From the NCBI RefSeq assembly GCF_016925495.1, contig NZ_CP070491.1, forward strand, positions 3,286,001 through 3,350,000: a DNA stretch of 64,000 bases, written 5' to 3'. The stretch comes from Methylococcus sp. EFPC2. GTDB lineage: Bacteria; Pseudomonadota; Gammaproteobacteria; Methylococcales; Methylococcaceae. Within the stretch, counting starts at the first letter, position 1, and the number at the start of each line of letters is the position of its first letter. Below, piece by piece: positions 24,921 through 35,844 of this stretch. A model generated the notes under the pieces. It saw nothing but the letters and a program-made list of their open reading frames with translations. It did no database searches and had not been told where the DNA came from. Position numbers and translations under genes: made by a program.

Positions 24921-24947
24921 CCGCACAGACTTTAGACTTTGAAGACC

Positions 24948-26431
<1,484 letters not shown>

Positions 26432-26435
<4 letters not shown>

Positions 26436-27019
26436 GCGCCCGCGTGCTGATGATCGACAATTACGATTCCTTCACCTACAACCTGGTGCAATACCTGGCC
26501 GAACTGGGCGCCGAGGTCGAGGTGGTGCGCAACGACCAGATCGCCGTCGAGGAGATCGAGAAGATCAATCCGGACAAGATCGTCATCTCGCCCGGTCCCT
26601 GCACACCCAAGGAAGCGGGCATTTCGGTGGAAACCATACATCGCTATGCCGGGCGTTATCCCATACTGGGGGTCTGCCTGGGACATCAGAGCATAGGCCA
26701 TGCCTTCGGCGGGCACGTCATCCACGCCAAGTCCATCATGCACGGCAAGACTTCGCTGGTGCGACACAAGGACCAGGGCGTGTTCGCGGGACTCAAGAAC
26801 CCGCTGCAAGTCACCCGCTACCATTCGCTGGTGATCGAACACGCCACGCTGCCCGATTGTCTGGAAATCACCGCCTGGACCGAAGACGAAAACGGCGGCT
26901 TCGATGAGATCATGGGCGTGCGCCACAAGACCCTGGCCGTCGAGGGCGTGCAATTCCACCCCGAGTCCATCATGACCGAACAGGGACACGAGTTGTTGAG
27001 GAATTTCCTCGTCGCCTAA
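26432..27019 (+). CDS. trpG: Anthranilate synthase component II (glutamine amidotransferase)
   Basis: 195 residues, class I glutamine amidotransferase. [16 protein letters not shown] at the start, the catalytic Cys in [13 protein letters not shown] and the catalytic His/Glu in FHPESI are all present. It supplies ammonia from glutamine to TrpE, and in many bacteria also to PabB. The ATG lies inside the trpE stop (ATGA). It is separate from trpD rather than fused. Confidence 0.95.
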
Positions 27020-27020
27020 T

Positions 27021-27104
27021 GTAGGTCGGGTTAGCGGCGTCATCGCGTAACCCGGCCTATCCCGCATGTCGCCGGGTTACGCCCTCGCAGGCTGACCCGA
27101 CCCA
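27021..27104. repeat. GGGTTA-type intergenic repeat
   Basis: Starts GTAGGTCGGGTTAGC and ends GCTGACCCGACC, with inner GCGTAACCCGGC and GCCGGGTTACGC arms. It can fold as nested hairpins between trpG and trpD and is the same family as 24853-24920. Confidence 0.6.
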
Positions 27105-27128
27105 CGAAAAAACCCGAAACCCAGCCCC

Positions 27129-28148
27129 ATGAACCTCCCCGCCGCCCTCAACCATCTGCTCAACGGCCAGGATCTCGAGCCCGTGCAGATGAAAGCCTTG
27201 ATGCTCGGTATCATGAGCGGCAAAGCCACGCCGGCGCAGATCGGCGCATTCCTGATCGCACTGCGCGCCAAGGGCGAGACGGTGGACGAGGTCGCCGCCG
27301 CCGCCGAGGTGCTGCGCGAGCTTTCGACCAAGGTGCATGTCAACGGCGAACACGTCATCGACACCTGCGGTACCGGCGGCGACGGCGCCCATACCTTCAA
27401 CATCTCCACCGCCGCCGCCTTCGTGGTGGCGGCCGCCGGCGGCAAGGTGGCCAAGCACGGCGGTCGCTCGGTTTCCAGCAGCACCGGCAGCGCGGACGTG
27501 CTGGAAGCGGCCGGCGTCAATCTGGATCTGACACCCGAACAGGTCGGGCAGTGCATCGATAAGATCGGCATCGGCTTCCTGTTCGCCCAACGCCACCATG
27601 GCGCGATGAAACACGCCGTCGGTCCCCGCAGGGAACTAGGCGTGCGCACCCTGTTCAACCTGCTCGGCCCGCTCACCAACCCGGCCGGCGCGCCCAACCA
27701 ACTGCTCGGCGTGTTTGCACGCTTATGGGTGGAGCCCATGGCCCGCGTGCTGCAAAAGCTCGGCAGCAAACATGTGCTGGTCGTCCACGCGGAAGACGGA
27801 CTCGACGAGATCAGCATCGCCTCGCCTACCTACGTGGCCGAACTGAAAAACGGCAAGGTCGAGACCTACACCCTCACACCCGAGCAGTTCGGCGTCGCCC
27901 GCACGCCGCTGGCTGCGCTGGCAGTGGACAGTGCAGCCGCCAGCCTGGCCATGCTGCGCGGCGTCCTCGACGGCAAGCCGGGACCGGCGCATGATATCGT
28001 GGCACTGAATGCGGGGGCGGCGATATACGCGGCGGACCTGGCGGGTGATCTCGCAGCGGGCGTGCTGCGCGCCCAAGAGGTAATCGCCGACGGCTCGGCC
28101 CGGCGCAAGCTGGATGAACTGATCGCGGTAAGCCAGTCCTTCACGTGA
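27129..28148 (+). CDS. trpD: Anthranilate phosphoribosyltransferase
   Basis: 339 residues. It transfers the phosphoribosyl group of PRPP to anthranilate. [20 protein letters not shown] is the PRPP-binding glycine-rich loop. [39 protein letters not shown] (anthranilate site) and [12 protein letters not shown] complete the family pattern. It is followed not by trpC but by a small ORF and a restriction-modification pair. Confidence 0.96.
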
Positions 28149-28191
28149 TCGCATCACGACTCAAACTGCCGACGGCCGGTTAGGGAGCGAA

Positions 28192-28506
28192 GTGGATCTA
28201 CACATCGACCCGATTAAAGCCAGGATCATGATCGGCAAAATGGTTCTTGTCGGCATCACCCGCCGCGACCGCTCCGACAACGTACTGGGCCTGGAGCAGT
28301 ACTTCGGAATCGTCCTGCGGGTCAATTTGGATGAAGGCTTGGTGATATCCCGCGGAGACACGGGTGAAGAAATGTCTTTGCCTCCCATGCTGGAACGGTA
28401 CGAGGAAGCCGAAAAAGGCGAGTACCAGCTTAAAACCACCGGCTTCGTGGTCAAGGACCCGGATTACCTGGCCACATGGACCGTCTACCCTCCGGTGAAC
28501 CATTGA
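28192..28506 (+). CDS. Small orphan protein between trpD and the R-M genes
   Basis: 104 residues from GTG 28192, with GGGAG a few bases upstream. It is a small, mixed-charge cytoplasmic protein without signal peptide or membrane segment; the first half is beta-rich (MVLVGITRRDR, FGIVLRVNLDEGLVISRG), suggesting a small barrel. Not recognised. It starts 43 bp after trpD and is separated from the restriction gene by 206 bp of repeats. No helix-turn-helix is visible, so it is not an obvious controller protein. Confidence 0.55.
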   Translation: MDLHIDPIKARIMIGKMVLVGITRRDRSDNVLGLEQYFGIVLRVNLDEGLVISRGDTGEEMSLPPMLERYEEAEKGEYQLKTTGFVVKDPDYLATWTVYPPVNH

Positions 28507-28600
28507 AAGCACGGCAGCATCCTGGCCCGGCACGCGGCCGGTGTTGTTTCGGCCCCCCTTCGAGGTTCTCGCCGTTGCGCCGCTTTGCGAGGCCCTCGGT

Positions 28601-28637
28601 TGCCATGAAAGTCGCGAAGCGAACACTTTGGTCTCCC
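28601..28637 (-). repeat. Dispersed 37-bp repeat, inverse of 7327-7363
   Basis: Reverse complement matches 33 of 37 bases of the copy at 7327-7363. It abuts the REP-like element that follows, sharing its last three bases. Confidence 0.75.
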
Positions 28638-28667
28638 TCTCCCACTGGGAGAGGGCAGGGGTGAGGG
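28635..28667 (+). repeat. REP-like GGGAGAGGG/GGGTGAGGG element
   Basis: CCCTCTCCC-ACT-GGGAGAGGG forms a 9-bp perfect hairpin with a short loop, followed by CAGGGGTGAGGG. The same design recurs at 30967-31000, in inverse orientation at 31053-31085, and inside clpV at 46261-46306. Confidence 0.85.
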
Positions 28668-28668
28668 A

Positions 28669-28700
28669 AACAGCTTATGGCGCGAGCGCCATAAGCTGTT
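28669..28700. repeat. 32-bp perfect palindrome
   Basis: Fifteen-base arms (AACAGCTTATGGCGC and its exact complement) separated by GA, lying one base after the REP-like element and 12 bases before the restriction gene start. There is no T-tract. It could act as a transcript-end stabiliser or as an operator for the restriction-modification genes. Confidence 0.75.
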
Positions 28701-28712
28701 AATGGCATACCG

Positions 28713-29318
28713 ATGAGCTGGCAACACTACATACCGGAAGACATTACCGCGCTTTACGAAGTGCACGATTACAAGCACGCCGCGGCCATACTCAAATACG
28801 AATTTCCCGTGGAATTCCAGGAAATCTGCTGCGCCTTGCGCGCCTTCCGGCTGAGCGAACAAAACGTGCGCGATCCGGGCGGCAGCGAAAGTGCGATCCC
28901 CAAGCGCTTCTCGGATATCCTCCGCCCCATGGGATGGCGCGAACAAAAACTGAACGCCAAGGTGATCGTGGACGGCCACGAGTTCGCCCACGACAGCCAT
29001 AACGTGGATTACCTGAAAGGGCGGGTCGCGTTCGATCTGGAGTGGAACAGCAAGGATCAGACCTACGACCGCGACCTCTACGCCTTCCGGGCGTTTTTCG
29101 ACTACGACAAGATCAGCGTCGGCGTCCTCGCGACGCGCAGCAACGATCTCGACCCCTGGTTCAAGGAACTGGGGATATACGGTAAATACGGTGCCAGCAC
29201 CACCCAGATGGGCAAGCTCCTGCCCCGGCTGGACGCCGGGCGCAACGGCGGCTGTCCGGTGCTGGTGTTCGGCATCACGACGCAGTTGATCGAACAGGCA
29301 CAGGCTTCATGTCCATAG
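28713..29318 (+). CDS. BglII/BstYI-family type II restriction endonuclease
   Basis: 201 residues. The layout matches the BglII/BstYI group: a helical N-terminus, then HNVDYLKGRVAFDLEWNSKD, which holds candidate catalytic residues Asp99, Glu110 and Asn112 in the D-x(10)-E-x-N arrangement (family members use E-x-Q/K/N-type triads), and a C-terminal beta-rich half. It should cut DNA at a palindromic site, in the known members of GATC-core type; the site here cannot be read from sequence. The downstream adenine methyltransferase overlaps by 10 bp, which makes a complete type II R-M pair. Both genes lie between trpD and trpC, so they are insertions in that cluster. Confidence 0.82.
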   Translation: MSWQHYIPEDITALYEVHDYKHAAAILKYEFPVEFQEICCALRAFRLSEQNVRDPGGSESAIPKRFSDILRPMGWREQKLNAKVIVDGHEFAHDSHNVDYLKGRVAFDLEWNSKDQTYDRDLYAFRAFFDYDKISVGVLATRSNDLDPWFKELGIYGKYGASTTQMGKLLPRLDAGRNGGCPVLVFGITTQLIEQAQASCP

Positions 29319-29974
29319 AAACGCTCTCCGCCGCGGACGACTTCCTTCAGTTCGCCCAGGGGCGGAAATTTTCCACCGTGCTGGCGGATCCGCCCTGGCA
29401 GTTCCAGAACCGCACCGGCAAGATGGCGCCGGAACACAAGCGGCTGTCCCGTTATCCGACCCTGACCTTACAGGAGATCAAGGACATCCCGGTGGAAGCC
29501 GCCGTCAAGGACACCGCCCATCTTTATCTCTGGGTGCCGAACGCCTTGCTGGCCGAGGGCCTGGCGGTGATGGAATGCTGGGGTTTCACCTACAAGACCA
29601 ATCTGATCTGGTACAAGGTGCGCAAAGACGGCGGACCAGACCGGCGCGGCGTCGGGTTTTATTTCCGCAACGTCACGGAGATGATACTTTTCGGCGTCCG
29701 TGGCAAGAACGCGCGTACCCTGCAGCCGGGTCGCAGCCAGGAAAACATCATCGCCACCCAGAAGCGCGAGCACAGCCGCAAGCCCGACGAGCAATACGCT
29801 CTGATCGAATCTTGCAGTCCCGGCCCTTACCTGGAGATGTTCGCCCGCGGCAACCGGCCGAACTGGCAGTGCTGGGGCAATCAGGCCGAAGATTACGCGC
29901 CGGATTGGGATACCTATGCCAACCATTCCCAGTCGAACATCGTGTCCATTAATGATCGGCGCAAGCGCAGTTAA
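29309..29974 (+). CDS. MT-A70-family DNA adenine methyltransferase
   Basis: 221 residues. The catalytic motif DPPW lies in VLADPPWQFQ near residue 28. HLYLWVPNALLAEGLAVMECWGF, LIWYKVRKDG and the C-terminal PGPYLEMFARGNRPNWQCWGN complete the MT-A70 pattern. It methylates adenine N6 and presumably protects the host from the adjacent endonuclease. The 5' end overlaps the endonuclease gene by 10 bp. The nuclease-first order with overlap implies that expression timing depends on other signals, since the methylase normally must act first. Confidence 0.9.
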   Translation: MSIETLSAADDFLQFAQGRKFSTVLADPPWQFQNRTGKMAPEHKRLSRYPTLTLQEIKDIPVEAAVKDTAHLYLWVPNALLAEGLAVMECWGFTYKTNLIWYKVRKDGGPDRRGVGFYFRNVTEMILFGVRGKNARTLQPGRSQENIIATQKREHSRKPDEQYALIESCSPGPYLEMFARGNRPNWQCWGNQAEDYAPDWDTYANHSQSNIVSINDRRKRS

Positions 29975-30104
29975 GCCCACGGTTGCATGCCGTTAGCGGC
30001 GAACTTGTCGAATACGGGGTTCGGCGCGATCGCTCCGAATAGCGCCCGCAAGTACCCCGGCCCCGGTTGCCCCCACCGCAAACAACACCTAAAACAGACC
30101 CATC

Positions 30105-30902
30105 ATGACCGATACGCCCGACATCCTGAAGAAAATCATCGCCCGCAAGCACGAGGAAATCGCCGAGCGCAAGGCACGGGTTCCGGTTGAATTCCTCCGC
30201 GAACTCGCGGCTGGCGACTGGCCGCGCGGCTTCGTCTCCGCGATCAAGTCCAAGATCGCCAAGGGCCAGCCGGCGGTGATCGCCGAAATCAAGAAGGCCT
30301 CGCCCAGCAAGGGTGTGCTGCGCGAGGATTTCCGCCCGGCCGAGATCGCCTGGAGCTATGCCTCCGCCGGCGCGGCCTGCTTGTCGGTGCTGACCGACCG
30401 CGACTTCTTCCAGGGTGCCGAGGTTTATCTGGAAATGGCCCGCTCGGCGTCCGCCCTGCCGGTGATCCGCAAGGATTTCATCATCGACCCCTACCAGGTG
30501 GTCGAGGCGCGCGCCATCAAGGCCGACTGCATCCTGTTGATCGCCGCCGCCCTGGACGACGCCCGTCTGGCCGAACTCGCCGCCCTGACCAAGGAACTGG
30601 GCATGGACGTGCTGGTGGAAGTGCACGACGCCGACGAACTGGAGCGCGCGCTCAAGCTGGACCTGCCGCTGATCGGCATCAACAACCGCAATCTGCGCAG
30701 CTTCGAGGTGTCGCTGAACACCACGCTGGACCTGCTGCCGCGCATCCCGGAAGACCGCATCGTCGTCACCGAAAGCGGCATCCTGGCACCTGCAGACGTC
30801 GCCCTGATGCGCGAGCACAAGGTCAACGCCTTCCTGGTCGGCGAAGCCTTCATGCGGGCCGACGATCCGGGCGCGGCATTGAAAGCGCTGTTCTTCGCCT
30901 GA
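30105..30902 (+). CDS. trpC: Indole-3-glycerol-phosphate synthase
   Basis: 265 residues, (beta/alpha)8 barrel. [17 protein letters not shown] at the start, [14 protein letters not shown] (catalytic Lys), [36 protein letters not shown] (second catalytic Lys), [12 protein letters not shown] and VTESGI are all present. It makes indole-3-glycerol phosphate from CdRP. It is monofunctional, with no TrpF domain. It is separated from trpD by about 2 kb carrying the R-M genes, so transcription from trpD must cross that insert, or trpC has its own promoter in the 130 bp after the methyltransferase. Confidence 0.96.
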
Positions 30903-30966
30903 GCGGTTCAACTGAATCCCCTCAAAACTTTAATCCTCCCCCGAACGAACCGCCATTGAGTTAGGC

Positions 30967-31085
30967 CCCTCTCCCTGTGGGAGAGGGGTTGGGGTGAGGG
31001 CCAAGCGCGTACGCTGCTTACGGTGACCATGTTGGGACACCCACACGCTTAGCCCTCACCCTAGCCCTCTCCCAAAGGGAGAGGG
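30967..31085. repeat. Inverted pair of REP-like elements
   Basis: Two REP-like elements face each other: CCCTCTCCC...GGGTGAGGG at 30967-31000 and CCCTCACCC...GGGAGAGGG at 31053-31085. The pair can form a long cruciform or hairpin around a 52-bp centre (a BIME-like arrangement). It sits between trpC and ubiD and may act as a terminator or mRNA stabiliser. Confidence 0.8.
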
Positions 31086-31143
31086 AAGCAAGAGCCTGAC
31101 TCAATGCTTGGCTCCAGGAGGAAGCGTACGCCGGACTCTTTAC

Positions 31144-32610
31144 ATGAAATACCGCGATCTGCGCGACTTTATCGGCCAACTCGAAGCCCGCGGCGAGCTG
31201 AAACGCATCGCCTATCCGGCCGATCCCAGGCTGGAGATCACCGAGATCTGCGACCGCACCCTGCGGGCGGGCGGGCCGGCCTTGCTATTCGAGAATCCCA
31301 AGGGCTACGACGTCCCGCTGCTGGGCAATCTGTTCGGCACTCCGGAACGCGTGGCCTTGGGGATGGGCGAAACCTCGGTGGAAGCCTTGCGCGAGGTCGG
31401 CAAACTGCTGGCCTTCCTCAAGGAGCCCGACCCGCCCAAGGGCATGAAGGACGCCTTCGACAAGCTGCCCATCTTCAAGCAGGTGCTGAACATGGCGCCC
31501 AAGGAGGTCAAGCACGCGCCCTGCCAGGAAATCCTGCGCTTGGGCGAGGACATCGACCTCGGCCGCTACCCGGTGCAGACCTGCTGGCCGGGCGATGCCG
31601 GCCCGCTGATCACCTGGGCCCTGGTCATCACCCGCGGGCCTTACAAGGAACGGCAGAATCTCGGCATCTACCGCTGCCAGGTCATAGGCAAGAACAAGGT
31701 CATCATGCGCTGGCTGGCGCACCGCGGCGGCGCGCTGGACTACCGCGACTGGCAGGCCGCGCATCCGGGCCAGCCTTTCCCGGTAGCCGTGGCGCTGGGC
31801 GCGGACCCGGCCACCATACTCGGCGCCGTCACGCCGGTGCCGGACTCCTTGTCGGAATACGCCTTCGCCGGCCTGTTGCGCGGTTCCAAGACCGAGGTGG
31901 TGAAGTGCCGGCTGAGCGACCTGCAGGCCCCGGCCAGCGCGGAGATCGTGCTGGAAGGCTTTCTCTATCCCGGTGAAACCGCACCGGAAGGTCCGTTCGG
32001 CGACCACACCGGCTATTACAACGAGGTGGAGGAGTTCCCCGTCTTCACCATCGAGTGCATCACCCAGCGGGAAAATCCGATCTACCACAGCACCTACACC
32101 GGTCGGCCGCCGGACGAGCCGGCCATCCTGGGCGTGGCGCTGAACGAGGTGTTCGTACCCCTGCTGCAAAAGCAGTTCCCGGAAATCGTCGATTTCTACC
32201 TGCCGCCGGAAGGCTGCTCTTATCGCATGGCGGTGGTGAGCATGAAGAAGCAATACCCTGGTCACGCCAAGCGGGTGATGTTCGGCATCTGGAGTTTCCT
32301 GCGTCAGTTCATGTACACCAAGTTCATCATCGTCTGCGACGACGATGTGAACGTGCGCGACTGGAAGGACGTGATGTGGGCCATCACCACCCGCATGGAC
32401 CCGGCGCGCGACACCACGCTGATCGAGAACACGCCGATCGATTACCTGGACTTCGCTTCGCCGGTCTCGGGCCTGGGCTCCAAGATGGGCCTGGACGCGA
32501 CCAACAAATGGCCGGGTGAGACGACCCGCGAGTGGGGCAGCCCGATCAGCATGAGCGCCGAGGTCAAGGCCAAGATCGACGGCATCTGGGCCGAGTTGGG
32601 GATAATTTGA
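31144..32610 (+). CDS. ubiD: UbiD-family decarboxylase (3-octaprenyl-4-hydroxybenzoate)
   Basis: 488 residues from ATG 31144. The enzyme removes the carboxylate in ubiquinone synthesis and uses prenylated FMN made by Ubi[56 protein letters not shown] and GSSTYTGR-type [15 protein letters not shown] segments fit the proteobacterial UbiD class. Length matches the E. coli enzyme (about 497). Upstream REP-like repeats separate it from trpC. A frame-consistent ATG 36 bases earlier falls in repeat-proximal sequence and is less likely. Confidence 0.93.
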
Positions 32611-32796: not shown

Positions 32797-35700
32797 GTGA
32801 GCAAAATTACCCGCCACCTGCGCTCCCGCGGAATGGAAACCCTATCGGTCGGCATGCTGCTGGCCTGCTCCTCCGGCCCGGCATTTTCTGAGACCCTATC
32901 CTCCGACGTGTCGTGGTCCGTCATTGGGCGGAATATCACCATTTCCAATCCTGCATTCACGGCAGCGGGCGACGGGACTTTTGCAGGCAATGCCGCGACC
33001 GTAAGCTCCGGCTCCAGCATTACCCTGACGGGCGCATATTCCATACAGGAAGGGGACACTTCTTATTGCCCATTCTGCGTCATCCAACTTTACACGGCAT
33101 GGATTTCGCCCGCACCGGCCAACTCGCAAGGATTCTACTCGGGAGAAATCTTCCCTGGATTTGGCTCTTTATCCGGCGTCCTTCCGGCATGGACATCGGA
33201 TGCGCCAAAAACTCCCGGGACCTACTACATCGGTCTGGCATCCACGCTAGATTTTTTCTATCACCCCAATATGGCCGGCGCCGCCGGAGCGGACGCACAA
33301 GGGATACCCGGCGCCGCGCCCTACCAGGTCACCGTGATCCCCATCGCGCTGGCCCCGAATCCCTCGCCCAATACCTTGAGCACGAACCCCGGATACTATT
33401 ACTCCACGTCGGAGACATATATCAATGGCGGCACTCTGACCAACAACGGCGCGACGATACAGAATCCCGGCACATTCATTAACCAGGGGACCGTCGCGCA
33501 ACAAGGCGAATGGGAAAACTCCGGAAGCATCATTAACTCGGGCCAATTCGATCTGCCCGGAAATGGCCACATTACCGGCACGGGGACTTATACCCAAACG
33601 TCTGGACTAACCAACTTGTCCGGCTCATTGCAAGCCAGCCAGGTCGACATCCAGGGAGGAACATTCAATCTGTCCGGCGGCAGTGTGCAGGCCAGCACGT
33701 TTGTCAACCAGGGCGTGCTGAACTATTCCGCAGGAAGCCTCCAGGCAAGCCTTGCCAACCGAGGCACGGTGAACGTGCAAGGCGAATGGGATAATTCCGG
33801 AAGCATCATTAACTCGGGCCAATTCGATCTGACTGGAAATGGCCGCCTTACCGGTACGGGGACTTATACCCAAACGGCTGGACTAACCAACTTGTCCAGC
33901 TCATTGCAAGCCAGCCAGGTCGACATCCAGGGAGGAACATTCAACCTGTCCGGCGGCAGCGTGCAGACCAGCACGTTTGTCAACCAAGGCGTGCTGAACT
34001 ATTCCGCAGGAAGCTTCCAGGCAAGCTTGCTGAACCGGGGGGTCGTGAATGTGAGCGGCGTCGGCGCCCATGTCGTCGGCGGCGATGTGCTGAACCGCGG
34101 CACCTTCAACGTCACCGAAACCACGGTGAGCTTCGGCGGCACCTTCACCAACGAAGGGGCCTACATCAGCGATCCTTCGCTCAACCAGTTCCAGAATCTG
34201 AGCGTCGGCGCCGAAGGCTATCTGGTGGGGGGAGAAGGCGACGTCTTCGTCGTAAGCGGCGACTTCCAAAACGGTTCCACGCAAAGCAGCCTGTGGGAGA
34301 CCAGCGCATCGACCCTGGTCTTCGCCGGCGGCTCGGGGCAACACGTCATGGGCTTGGCCGGTGAAGACCGGGGCGCGCAGGCCTCGGCCTTTCTCAACAA
34401 TTTTTCCTGGGGCACGCTGGCTTTGGCCAGCGGCGATCGGCTTAATCTGACCGATGGGAATACGACCCCGGGCGCCGCCCTGTACGCCCGCCGCATCGTG
34501 CTGCCCGGCGGCACCGCCCAACTCGCCAGCGTATTCAGCGATTACAACGTTTATTTCGATCCCAGTCTGACGGAAAACCAATACCTGCTCGGGGCGAGCC
34601 TGGGCGGGGGCAAAGGCCGCTTGCTGCCCTGGAGCTTCGTCCCCGGCCTGACCGATACGGGCGGCACGGATGCCTTGACGGAAAACGAACAGACCTTCGC
34701 CGCGGCGGTGGACGAGTCGTGCACCGCGGCCACCGGGCAACTCGCCGAGCGCTGCCTGGAACTCCAGGCCCTGGACAATGACGGTAAGAACCAGGCGGTA
34801 CAAAGCCTGACGCCGGACCAGACGCCCACCCAGACCAACCTCGGCATCAAGTTCAACAATACCCGCATGGATGCGCCGCTGGCCCGCCTGGCCTCCTTGC
34901 GCGTGGGCGGGGTCGGCCCGCTGGCGCTGAACTTCAACGGCTATGCGGTATCCCTGGGCGCGACCGGCGGAGCCGCGGGCGACGAGCCGTTCCGCGACAG
35001 TCCGCTGGGCGTGTTCATCCAGGGCAAGATGAGCCTGGGCGACAAGGACGAGGATGCCACGGCGCGCGGCTTCCATTACGAGACCCGCAATGTGACCGTG
35101 GGTGCGGATTACCGGTTCAACGACAATCTCGTGGCCGGCGTGGCCTTGAGCTACGCCAATACCAACACCGTGTTCGCGAAGGGATCGGGCGAGATGAACC
35201 AGGACAGCGTGCTGGGCGGCCTTTACGGTAGCCTGTATCTGCCGCAGGACTACTACGTGGACTGGCTGGTCAATTACGGTGGCCTGGATTACACCCTCAC
35301 GCGCCAGCTGGCCTACTCGGGATTCAGCGGCAAGGCCCGCAGCACGCCGGGCGGCGACCAGTTCGGCGTGTCCGTGAGCGGCGGGCGGGATTTCGCCTGG
35401 AAGGAATGGCTGGCCAGCCCCATCCTGCGCTTCGAATACTCTCAGTTGAACGTCGATGCCTATCGTGAAAAAGGCGGCGGCGGCCTGGGGCTGAACGCGG
35501 ACAAACAGTCGGACGACTCCCTGGTATCCGACCTGGGCGCGCAGATCGGCCACAACCTCAGCCTGCCCTGGGGCGTGGTGACGCCCGCGCTACGGGTGGA
35601 ATGGGAGCATCAGTACCTGAACGACAATCGCAGCATCCACATGCGCCTGAACGACGCCTCGGCGGGCCTGGGGGCGTTCACGGTCAACACCGGTAAACCG

Positions 35701-35844
35701 GACCGCGATTACCTGAACCTGGGCGGCTCGGTCGCCGCTGTGCTGCCCAACGGCGGTTCGGCCTTCCTGCGCTACGAGACCCGCCTGGGCCAGAGCAGCA
35801 TCAGCAACCACATCGTCGAACTCGGCCTGCGACTGAATTTCTAA
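32797..35844 (+). CDS. Type Va autotransporter 1
   Basis: 1015 residues from GTG 32797 (AGGA nine bases upstream). A signal peptide ends near AFS-E at about residue 32. The passenger has beta-helix-like Asn/Gly/Ser/Thr-rich sequence and a 92-residue tandem duplication (residues about 236-419). The C-terminal translocator barrel (about the last 280 residues, from LGVFIQGKMSLG) ends in LRLNF, the terminal-Phe signature of Bam substrates. The passenger function (adhesin, enzyme or other) is not evident. From residue 419 onwards it is virtually identical to autotransporter 2. A linker with two Cys (VDESCTAATGQLAERC) sits before the barrel in both. Confidence 0.9.
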   Translation: MSKITRHLRSRGMETLSVGMLLACSSGPAFSETLSSDVSWSVIGRNITISNPAFTAAGDGTFAGNAATVSSGSSITLTGAYSIQEGDTSYCPFCVIQLYTAWISPAPANSQGFYSGEIFPGFGSLSGVLPAWTSDAPKTPGTYYIGLASTLDFFYHPNMAGAAGADAQGIPGAAPYQVTVIPIALAPNPSPNTLSTNPGYYYSTSETYINGGTLTNNGATIQNPGTFINQGTVAQQGEWENSGSIINSGQFDLPGNGHITGTGTYTQTSGLTNLSGSLQASQVDIQGGTFNLSGGSVQASTFVNQGVLNYSAGSLQASLANRGTVNVQGEWDNSGSIINSGQFDLTGNGRLTGTGTYTQTAGLTNLSSSLQASQVDIQGGTFNLSGGSVQTSTFVNQGVLNYSAGSFQASLLNRGVVNVSGVGAHVVGGDVLNRGTFNVTETTVSFGGTFTNEGAYISDPSLNQFQNLSVGAEGYLVGGEGDVFVVSGDFQNGSTQSSLWETSASTLVFAGGSGQHVMGLAGEDRGAQASAFLNNFSWGTLALASGDRLNLTDGNTTPGAALYARRIVLPGGTAQLASVFSDYNVYFDPSLTENQYLLGASLGGGKGRLLPWSFVPGLTDTGGTDALTENEQTFAAAVDESCTAATGQLAERCLELQALDNDGKNQAVQSLTPDQTPTQTNLGIKFNNTRMDAPLARLASLRVGGVGPLALNFNGYAVSLGATGGAAGDEPFRDSPLGVFIQGKMSLGDKDEDATARGFHYETRNVTVGADYRFNDNLVAGVALSYANTNTVFAKGSGEMNQDSVLGGLYGSLYLPQDYYVDWLVNYGGLDYTLTRQLAYSGFSGKARSTPGGDQFGVSVSGGRDFAWKEWLASPILRFEYSQLNVDAYREKGGGGLGLNADKQSDDSLVSDLGAQIGHNLSLPWGVVTPALRVEWEHQYLNDNRSIHMRLNDASAGLGAFTVNTGKPDRDYLNLGGSVAAVLPNGGSAFLRYETRLGQSSISNHIVELGLRLNF
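33502..34053 (+). repeat. 276-bp tandem duplication in passenger 1
   Basis: Two in-frame copies, 33502-33777 and 33778-34053, each 92 codons and differing by scattered substitutions. They encode the QGEW(E/D)NSGSIINSGQFDL... unit. Within each unit, shorter NxGxxNxSG-like repeats are visible. Confidence 0.85.

Follow-up and report, generated by a model that had tools for sequence, protein, structure and literature searches.

A predicted Type II restriction-modification pair inserted between trpD and trpC in Methylococcus sp. EFPC2

The gap between trpD and trpC of Methylococcus sp. EFPC2 holds three inserted genes, which we read, with a probability of about 0.85, as a complete Type II restriction-modification (R-M) pair that was acquired horizontally and settled there with an unrelated small gene. 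The window, the 64,000-nucleotide stretch of DNA that was analysed (contig NZ_CP070491.1, positions 3,286,001 to 3,350,000), carries on its + strand, in this order, trpE (24939..26435; PF00425, PF04715), trpG (26426..27019; PF00117), trpD (27129..28148; PF00591/PF02885), an orphan gene of 104 aa (28192..28506), a BglII/BstYI-family Type II restriction endonuclease (REase, 28713..29318), an MT-A70 family adenine methyltransferase (MTase, 29309..29974) and trpC (30105..30902; PF00218), followed by a UbiD-family gene. The left and right borders of the insert, trpD and trpC, lie 1956 bp apart, and trpG and trpD are separated by 109 bp. Pfam matches and coordinates confirm what a sequence-only reading had proposed, that an orphan, a BglII/BstYI nuclease and an MT-A70 methyltransferase stand between trpD and trpC; the 10-base overlap it claimed for the last two is present at 29309-29318. 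The three inserted genes have a G+C of 0.556-0.602. Their third-position G+C is 0.71-0.79 versus 0.81-0.87 in the trp genes, and the overall G+C contrast between insert and trp genes is small, with trpG itself at 0.594. The spacer between trpG and trpD (27020-27128) is not a high-copy repeat, since the rest of the genome contains a single partial copy of it (about 87 bases at 77%). An ORF of 1015 aa at 32797-35844 of the window appears autotransporter-like by eye, and motifs recur in its passenger-like part.

Compared with its relatives, the window carries an insertion relative to the family, at a site that is new among the family genomes compared. The comparison covered 38 family genomes including this one, with a trpC match in 34; the genus of the window is represented by one genome among the 38. 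Distances were extrapolated from alignment ends, and one genome (G006) is cut by a contig end. Leaving aside the window and one other genus, here called g12, trpD and trpC are 1-145 bp apart in all 25 resolved family genomes, which bears out the earlier claim of an insertion in the trp cluster. By tblastn, the 29 resolved trpD-trpC gaps of relatives contain no match to any of the three inserted genes. The sequence-only reading had proposed comparing this junction, with the same R-M genes in all relatives pointing to an old arrangement; they occur in 0 of the 29 gaps, so that refuting result is absent.

The same gap holds other small cargo in g12, which the earlier reading had missed. Four of the seven g12 genomes are resolved: G019 (1069 bp) has a BrnA antitoxin and a ParE toxin, G025 (846 bp) BrnA and RelB antitoxins, G033 (734 bp) ParE, and G029 (1999 bp) PIN7, DUF29 and Uma2. 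For the other three, the contig ends before trpD, at 1386, 311 and 221 bases upstream of trpC. DNA in the gap of G019 is common to G025 (358 bp, 95%) and G033 (554 bp, 81%), so g12 contributes at least two distinct cargo sets, not four. The window insert and the inserts of the four g12 genomes have no sequence in common. In G061, a PDDEXK_2 nuclease is located upstream of trpC, and trpD is not seen there.

The nuclease matches Endonuc-BglII (PF09195) in Pfam with an E-value of 3.2e-46. An AlphaFold model, calculated with 30 aligned sequences as input, has a mean pLDDT of 82.8. The predicted model superimposes on BstYI with a Z score of 16.5 and an rmsd of 2.7 over 162 residues; the scores for BglII, BamHI and OkrAI are 15.0, 13.6 and 12.8, and the next structure, PspGI, scores 5.1. 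A Foldseek search with the same model returned three BstYI entries (E 4e-8 to 3e-7) and BamHI (E 1.9e-3), and single-sequence phmmer of the REase against BstYI gave an E-value of 0.0053. We aligned 62 REase sequences including that of the window, after dropping the 16 of 77 hits that fell outside 170-360 aa. With 61 letters at the columns of interest, D99 and E110 are conserved in 61 of 61; position 108 varies between E (47 sequences) and D (14). The active site is likely D99-x8-D108-L-E110; we take these three columns to be catalytic from a profile alignment with BstYI and from what is known of such enzymes.

The methyltransferase matches MT-A70 (PF05063, E 5.9e-31) and the PADLOC profile MTase_II (E 1.7e-88), and a DPPW motif can be read from its translation at residues 27-30. 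It is the one MT-A70 match in its own genome. NCBIfam gave no match for any of the three inserted proteins. Relatives of the MTase were collected by a scan of genome contigs, from which the best 80 of at least 580 were kept as the loci named here. Of these best 80, 60 have a same-strand REase match, whole or partial, no more than 400 bp upstream of the MTase; 2 have a convergent one downstream, and at the other 18 the search found none. Both genes are also present in plasmid records, for example NZ_CP125949.1, and plasmid annotations read ‘BglII/BstYI family type II restriction endonuclease’ and ‘MT-A70 family methyltransferase’. Among phage records, the nuclease had five matches, of which two belong to records of the same phage. 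Based on the pairing at 60 of the 80 loci and on the plasmid records, the BglII/BstYI and MT-A70 pair is an ordinary, known and widespread Type II kind. Judged by its sequence, the window pair is intact, and the families together with the gene pairing elsewhere support the earlier claim of an R-M pair.

Since 18 of the best 80 loci are without a nuclease, the MTase may also live alone. At four of the 18 (L040, L095, L097, L102) fewer than 260 bases precede the MTase, so the nuclease may be off the contig. Four Paracoccus loci (L070, L086, L088, L090) have the MTase without the nuclease, in neighbourhoods that look alike by eye, and possibly represent a domesticated solitary methyltransferase. 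The genome G002 contains two decayed-looking copies of the pair: the nuclease of L148 is in two pieces, and the MTase of L155 has an internal TAG.

The R-M pair probably arrived horizontally rather than by descent within the family. The window MTase is 72-83% identical to the named MTases compared, which are drawn from the best 80 of at least 580. Among the matches listed, the window REase is 62-68% identical to those of eight loci (L059, L037, L053, L062, L041, L046, L082, L072), by record title seven Bacteroidota lineages and one Cloacimonadota, and 26-49% identical to the other 54 of the 62 compared, family members included; only loci with a nuclease ORF above 150 aa entered this comparison. 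A further Bacteroidota locus, L077, has a REase identity of only 43%, which argues against a settled donor group. The MTase is present in 9 and the nuclease in 7 of 60 relatives, and ten MTase loci from 9 other family genomes have no trp gene in their flanks. Neither is there a trp gene in the flanking sequence of the best 80 of at least 580 MTase loci. The split in REase identity and the location of the family homologues away from trp genes both fit a horizontal arrival.

The third inserted gene, the orphan, matches nothing in Pfam, NCBIfam or PADLOC at an E-value of 1. Homologues with 41-53% identity exist in 3 of 368 other genomes of the class, and one with 41% identity in a Rhizobium plasmid record, indicating that the orphan is a real gene. 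Neither R-M gene is present in the four stretches that contain these homologues, and viral contigs hold no relative of the orphan. A single-sequence model of the protein is poor, with a mean pLDDT of 58.3. The idea that the orphan serves the R-M pair as a control or specificity protein gained no support, as the gene is found at 0 of the best 80 of at least 580 MTase loci, flanking sequence included, and at 0 of ten family loci. By these comparisons, the orphan is taken as a separate small passenger, unrelated to the R-M pair.

Repeats had also been described at both sides of the R-M genes, a claim that does not survive. A dispersed-repeat copy of about 105 bp (28597..28703) with the palindrome CCCTCTCCC at 28635 lies inside the insert, and two more copies of the palindrome lie past trpC (30967..31085). 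The palindrome, CCCTCTCCCnnnGGGAGAGGG, occurs at 28635, between the orphan and the REase, with two further sites after trpC (30967 and 31065); its core has 29 genomic sites versus 0 for the pattern read backwards. The unit at 28597-28703 includes a perfect hairpin with a 15-bp stem (28669-28700), just before the nuclease start, which may affect mRNA folding ahead of the nuclease. With 40 of 58 candidates scored, the unit has five other copies (at least 83% covered, 84-92% identity) and many partial ones. The window copies of this REP-like repeat lie between genes. Among repeats of at least 14 bases, no copy is found at either edge of the insert (28149, 30104). The insert is thus not framed by repeats, whose copies lie within it and past trpC. 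Flanking repeats as scars of the insertion were ruled out, as the repeat occurs throughout the genome and its copies here are away from the edges.

A single mobile element with repeats at its ends, bringing in all three genes at once, would explain why repeats are present near the insert. We regard this as very improbable and already largely refuted: the genome-wide repeat lies inside the insert and past trpC rather than at the edges, Pfam detects no transposase or integrase family in the three inserted genes, none was found in ten other ORFs of at least 60 aa in or touching the insert (two ORFs mostly inside trpC were left out), and the orphan is absent from the best 80 of at least 580 MTase loci. 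Another explanation is that the MTase is the useful part, providing a regulatory or protective mark, and that the nuclease is decaying. The 18 of the best 80 of at least 580 MTase loci without a REase, the four Paracoccus loci that keep the MTase alone, and the two copies in G002, one with a split REase and one with an internal TAG in its MTase, are consistent with this idea. In the window, however, the REase is full length, its predicted catalytic residues are conserved, and its model is confident and BstYI-like; thus we consider a decaying nuclease unlikely.

If a complete, horizontally acquired pair has settled between trpD and trpC, its REase would cleave a short palindromic site, probably centred on GATC, where that site is unmodified, and its MTase would methylate the adenine of the same site in the host’s own DNA. 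Both the activity and the target are predictions from sequence. BglII, BstYI and BamHI cleave sites centred on GATC. Given these sites and the adenine methyltransferase as partner, the target is probably, by analogy, a short palindrome with a GATC centre. Word counts over 464 kb of the genome give an observed/expected ratio of 0.56 for AGATCT (rank 5 of 64 palindromes), 0.59 for CGATCG, 0.78 for RGATCY together and 0.93 for GATC; unrelated palindromes are as low as AGATCT, and avoidance of the GATC type is not distinctive. A scan of 27000-31200 for sigma-70-like sites found 0, with 0.8 in shuffles; terminator-like sites number 6 versus 4.6 (sd 2.2), which is chance level. Read-through from the trp genes into the insert is plausible, and the pair would be expressed in this way. 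Two further proposals of the sequence-only reading, a stabilising effect of the operon on the R-M genes and a change in trpC transcription, gain no support from this analysis. The gap would tolerate insertions because trpD and trpC would need no tight coupling.

The neighbouring gap is open as well in some genomes. In three g12 genomes, trpG and trpD are separated by 1256 bp (G029), 4831 bp (G019) and 2797 bp (G033), and the content of these gaps includes DUF433/DUF5615, Roc-COR/TIR, a MazE antitoxin and a TseH-like domain. The Roc-COR protein of G019 has a TIR domain in its C-terminal region (L165:2717-5500 and L139:63-926); the two segments, from overlapping stretches, are probably one ORF. 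Outside g12 and the window, the trpG-trpD distance is 5-166 bp in 18 of 19 resolved genomes and 570 bp in G035. It is about 1880 bp in G007, also outside g12, and for another five genomes the 329-4407 bases examined upstream of trpD showed no trpG. Since the gap is open in G007 and G035, its openness is not special to g12.

Local synteny offered too few conserved pairs to serve as a baseline for insertion, and four control intervals in eight genomes, this one and seven of g12, were used instead. Between domain matches, hisA-hisF measures 50-52 bp and murE-murF 839-851 bp; murF-mraY-murD spans 1936-1956 bp (2125 in one g12 genome) and murD-ftsW-murG-murC 3075-3087 bp, where the genes between the mur matches are presumably mraY, ftsW and murG. 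The four intervals remain closed both in this genome and in 7 of 7 g12 genomes. As there are only four intervals, all in tight clusters, the controls indicate that g12 operons are not opened everywhere, rather than that the trp genes are unique.

These observations raise the question whether small addiction and nuclease genes preferentially land in trp gaps or are retained there: they would arrive time and again and persist, either because their deletion risks the biosynthetic operon or because the cargo borrows operon transcription. This idea would add to the reading of a horizontally acquired pair and does not exclude it. It is suggested by the other cargo between trpD and trpC in 4 of 4 resolved g12 genomes, by the opening of trpG-trpD in three of them, and by hisA-hisF, murE-murF, murF-murD and murD-murC remaining unopened in eight genomes. 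Yet these controls are only four, all tight clusters, the g12 genomes are fragmented drafts that are not independent, with the gap incomplete in three more, and trpG-trpD is open outside g12 too (G007, G035). Chance and relaxed linkage would yield the same picture, and we hold the idea only tentatively, as somewhat less probable than its opposite. The trpD-trpC gap may repeatedly take up small selfish or defence-like genes; the evidence is thin, with three g12 genomes sharing cargo. In its broadest form, the joints of the trp cluster would be recurrent homes across the family, where genes of unrelated kinds (toxin-antitoxin, nuclease, TIR-type and R-M) have settled or taken one another's place, dependent on the operon and without a mobile element of their own. 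This form is doubtful. If the pattern is true, short gaps in biosynthetic operons, not only tRNA genes and prophages, are small reservoirs of selfish and defence genes, and one could measure whether location in an operon protects such genes from loss.

The two enzymes and the trp gene order have known counterparts. The predicted REase model has the same fold as BstYI (1sdo/1vrr/2p0j; Z 16.5) and the same catalytic spacing, D-x8-[E/D]-x-. The two enzymes share about 22% identity; the window REase has D-L-E, and at the last catalytic position a Q of BstYI aligns where the window family has E, in a profile match that is weak (E 0.094). The MTase matches the PADLOC Type II MT-A70 methyltransferases PDLC03221/PDLC03262 over residues 15-214 of 221 and has in common with such enzymes the DPPW motif and a nuclease partner. 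Whereas the substrate of METTL3 is mRNA, that of the window MTase is presumably DNA, as judged from its partner gene. Judged by title and abstract opening, none of the open-licence papers listed by searches on trp-cluster insertions deals with R-M or toxin-antitoxin genes in the trpD-trpC gap. Passages of one account of bacterial trp operons mention gene insertions in general terms, and the word methyltransferase is absent from its main text (PMC2395257). The split trp operon E-G-D-C outlined in those passages has the same four genes in the same order as the window (PMC2395257). Unlike that operon, the window has an R-M pair between D and C.
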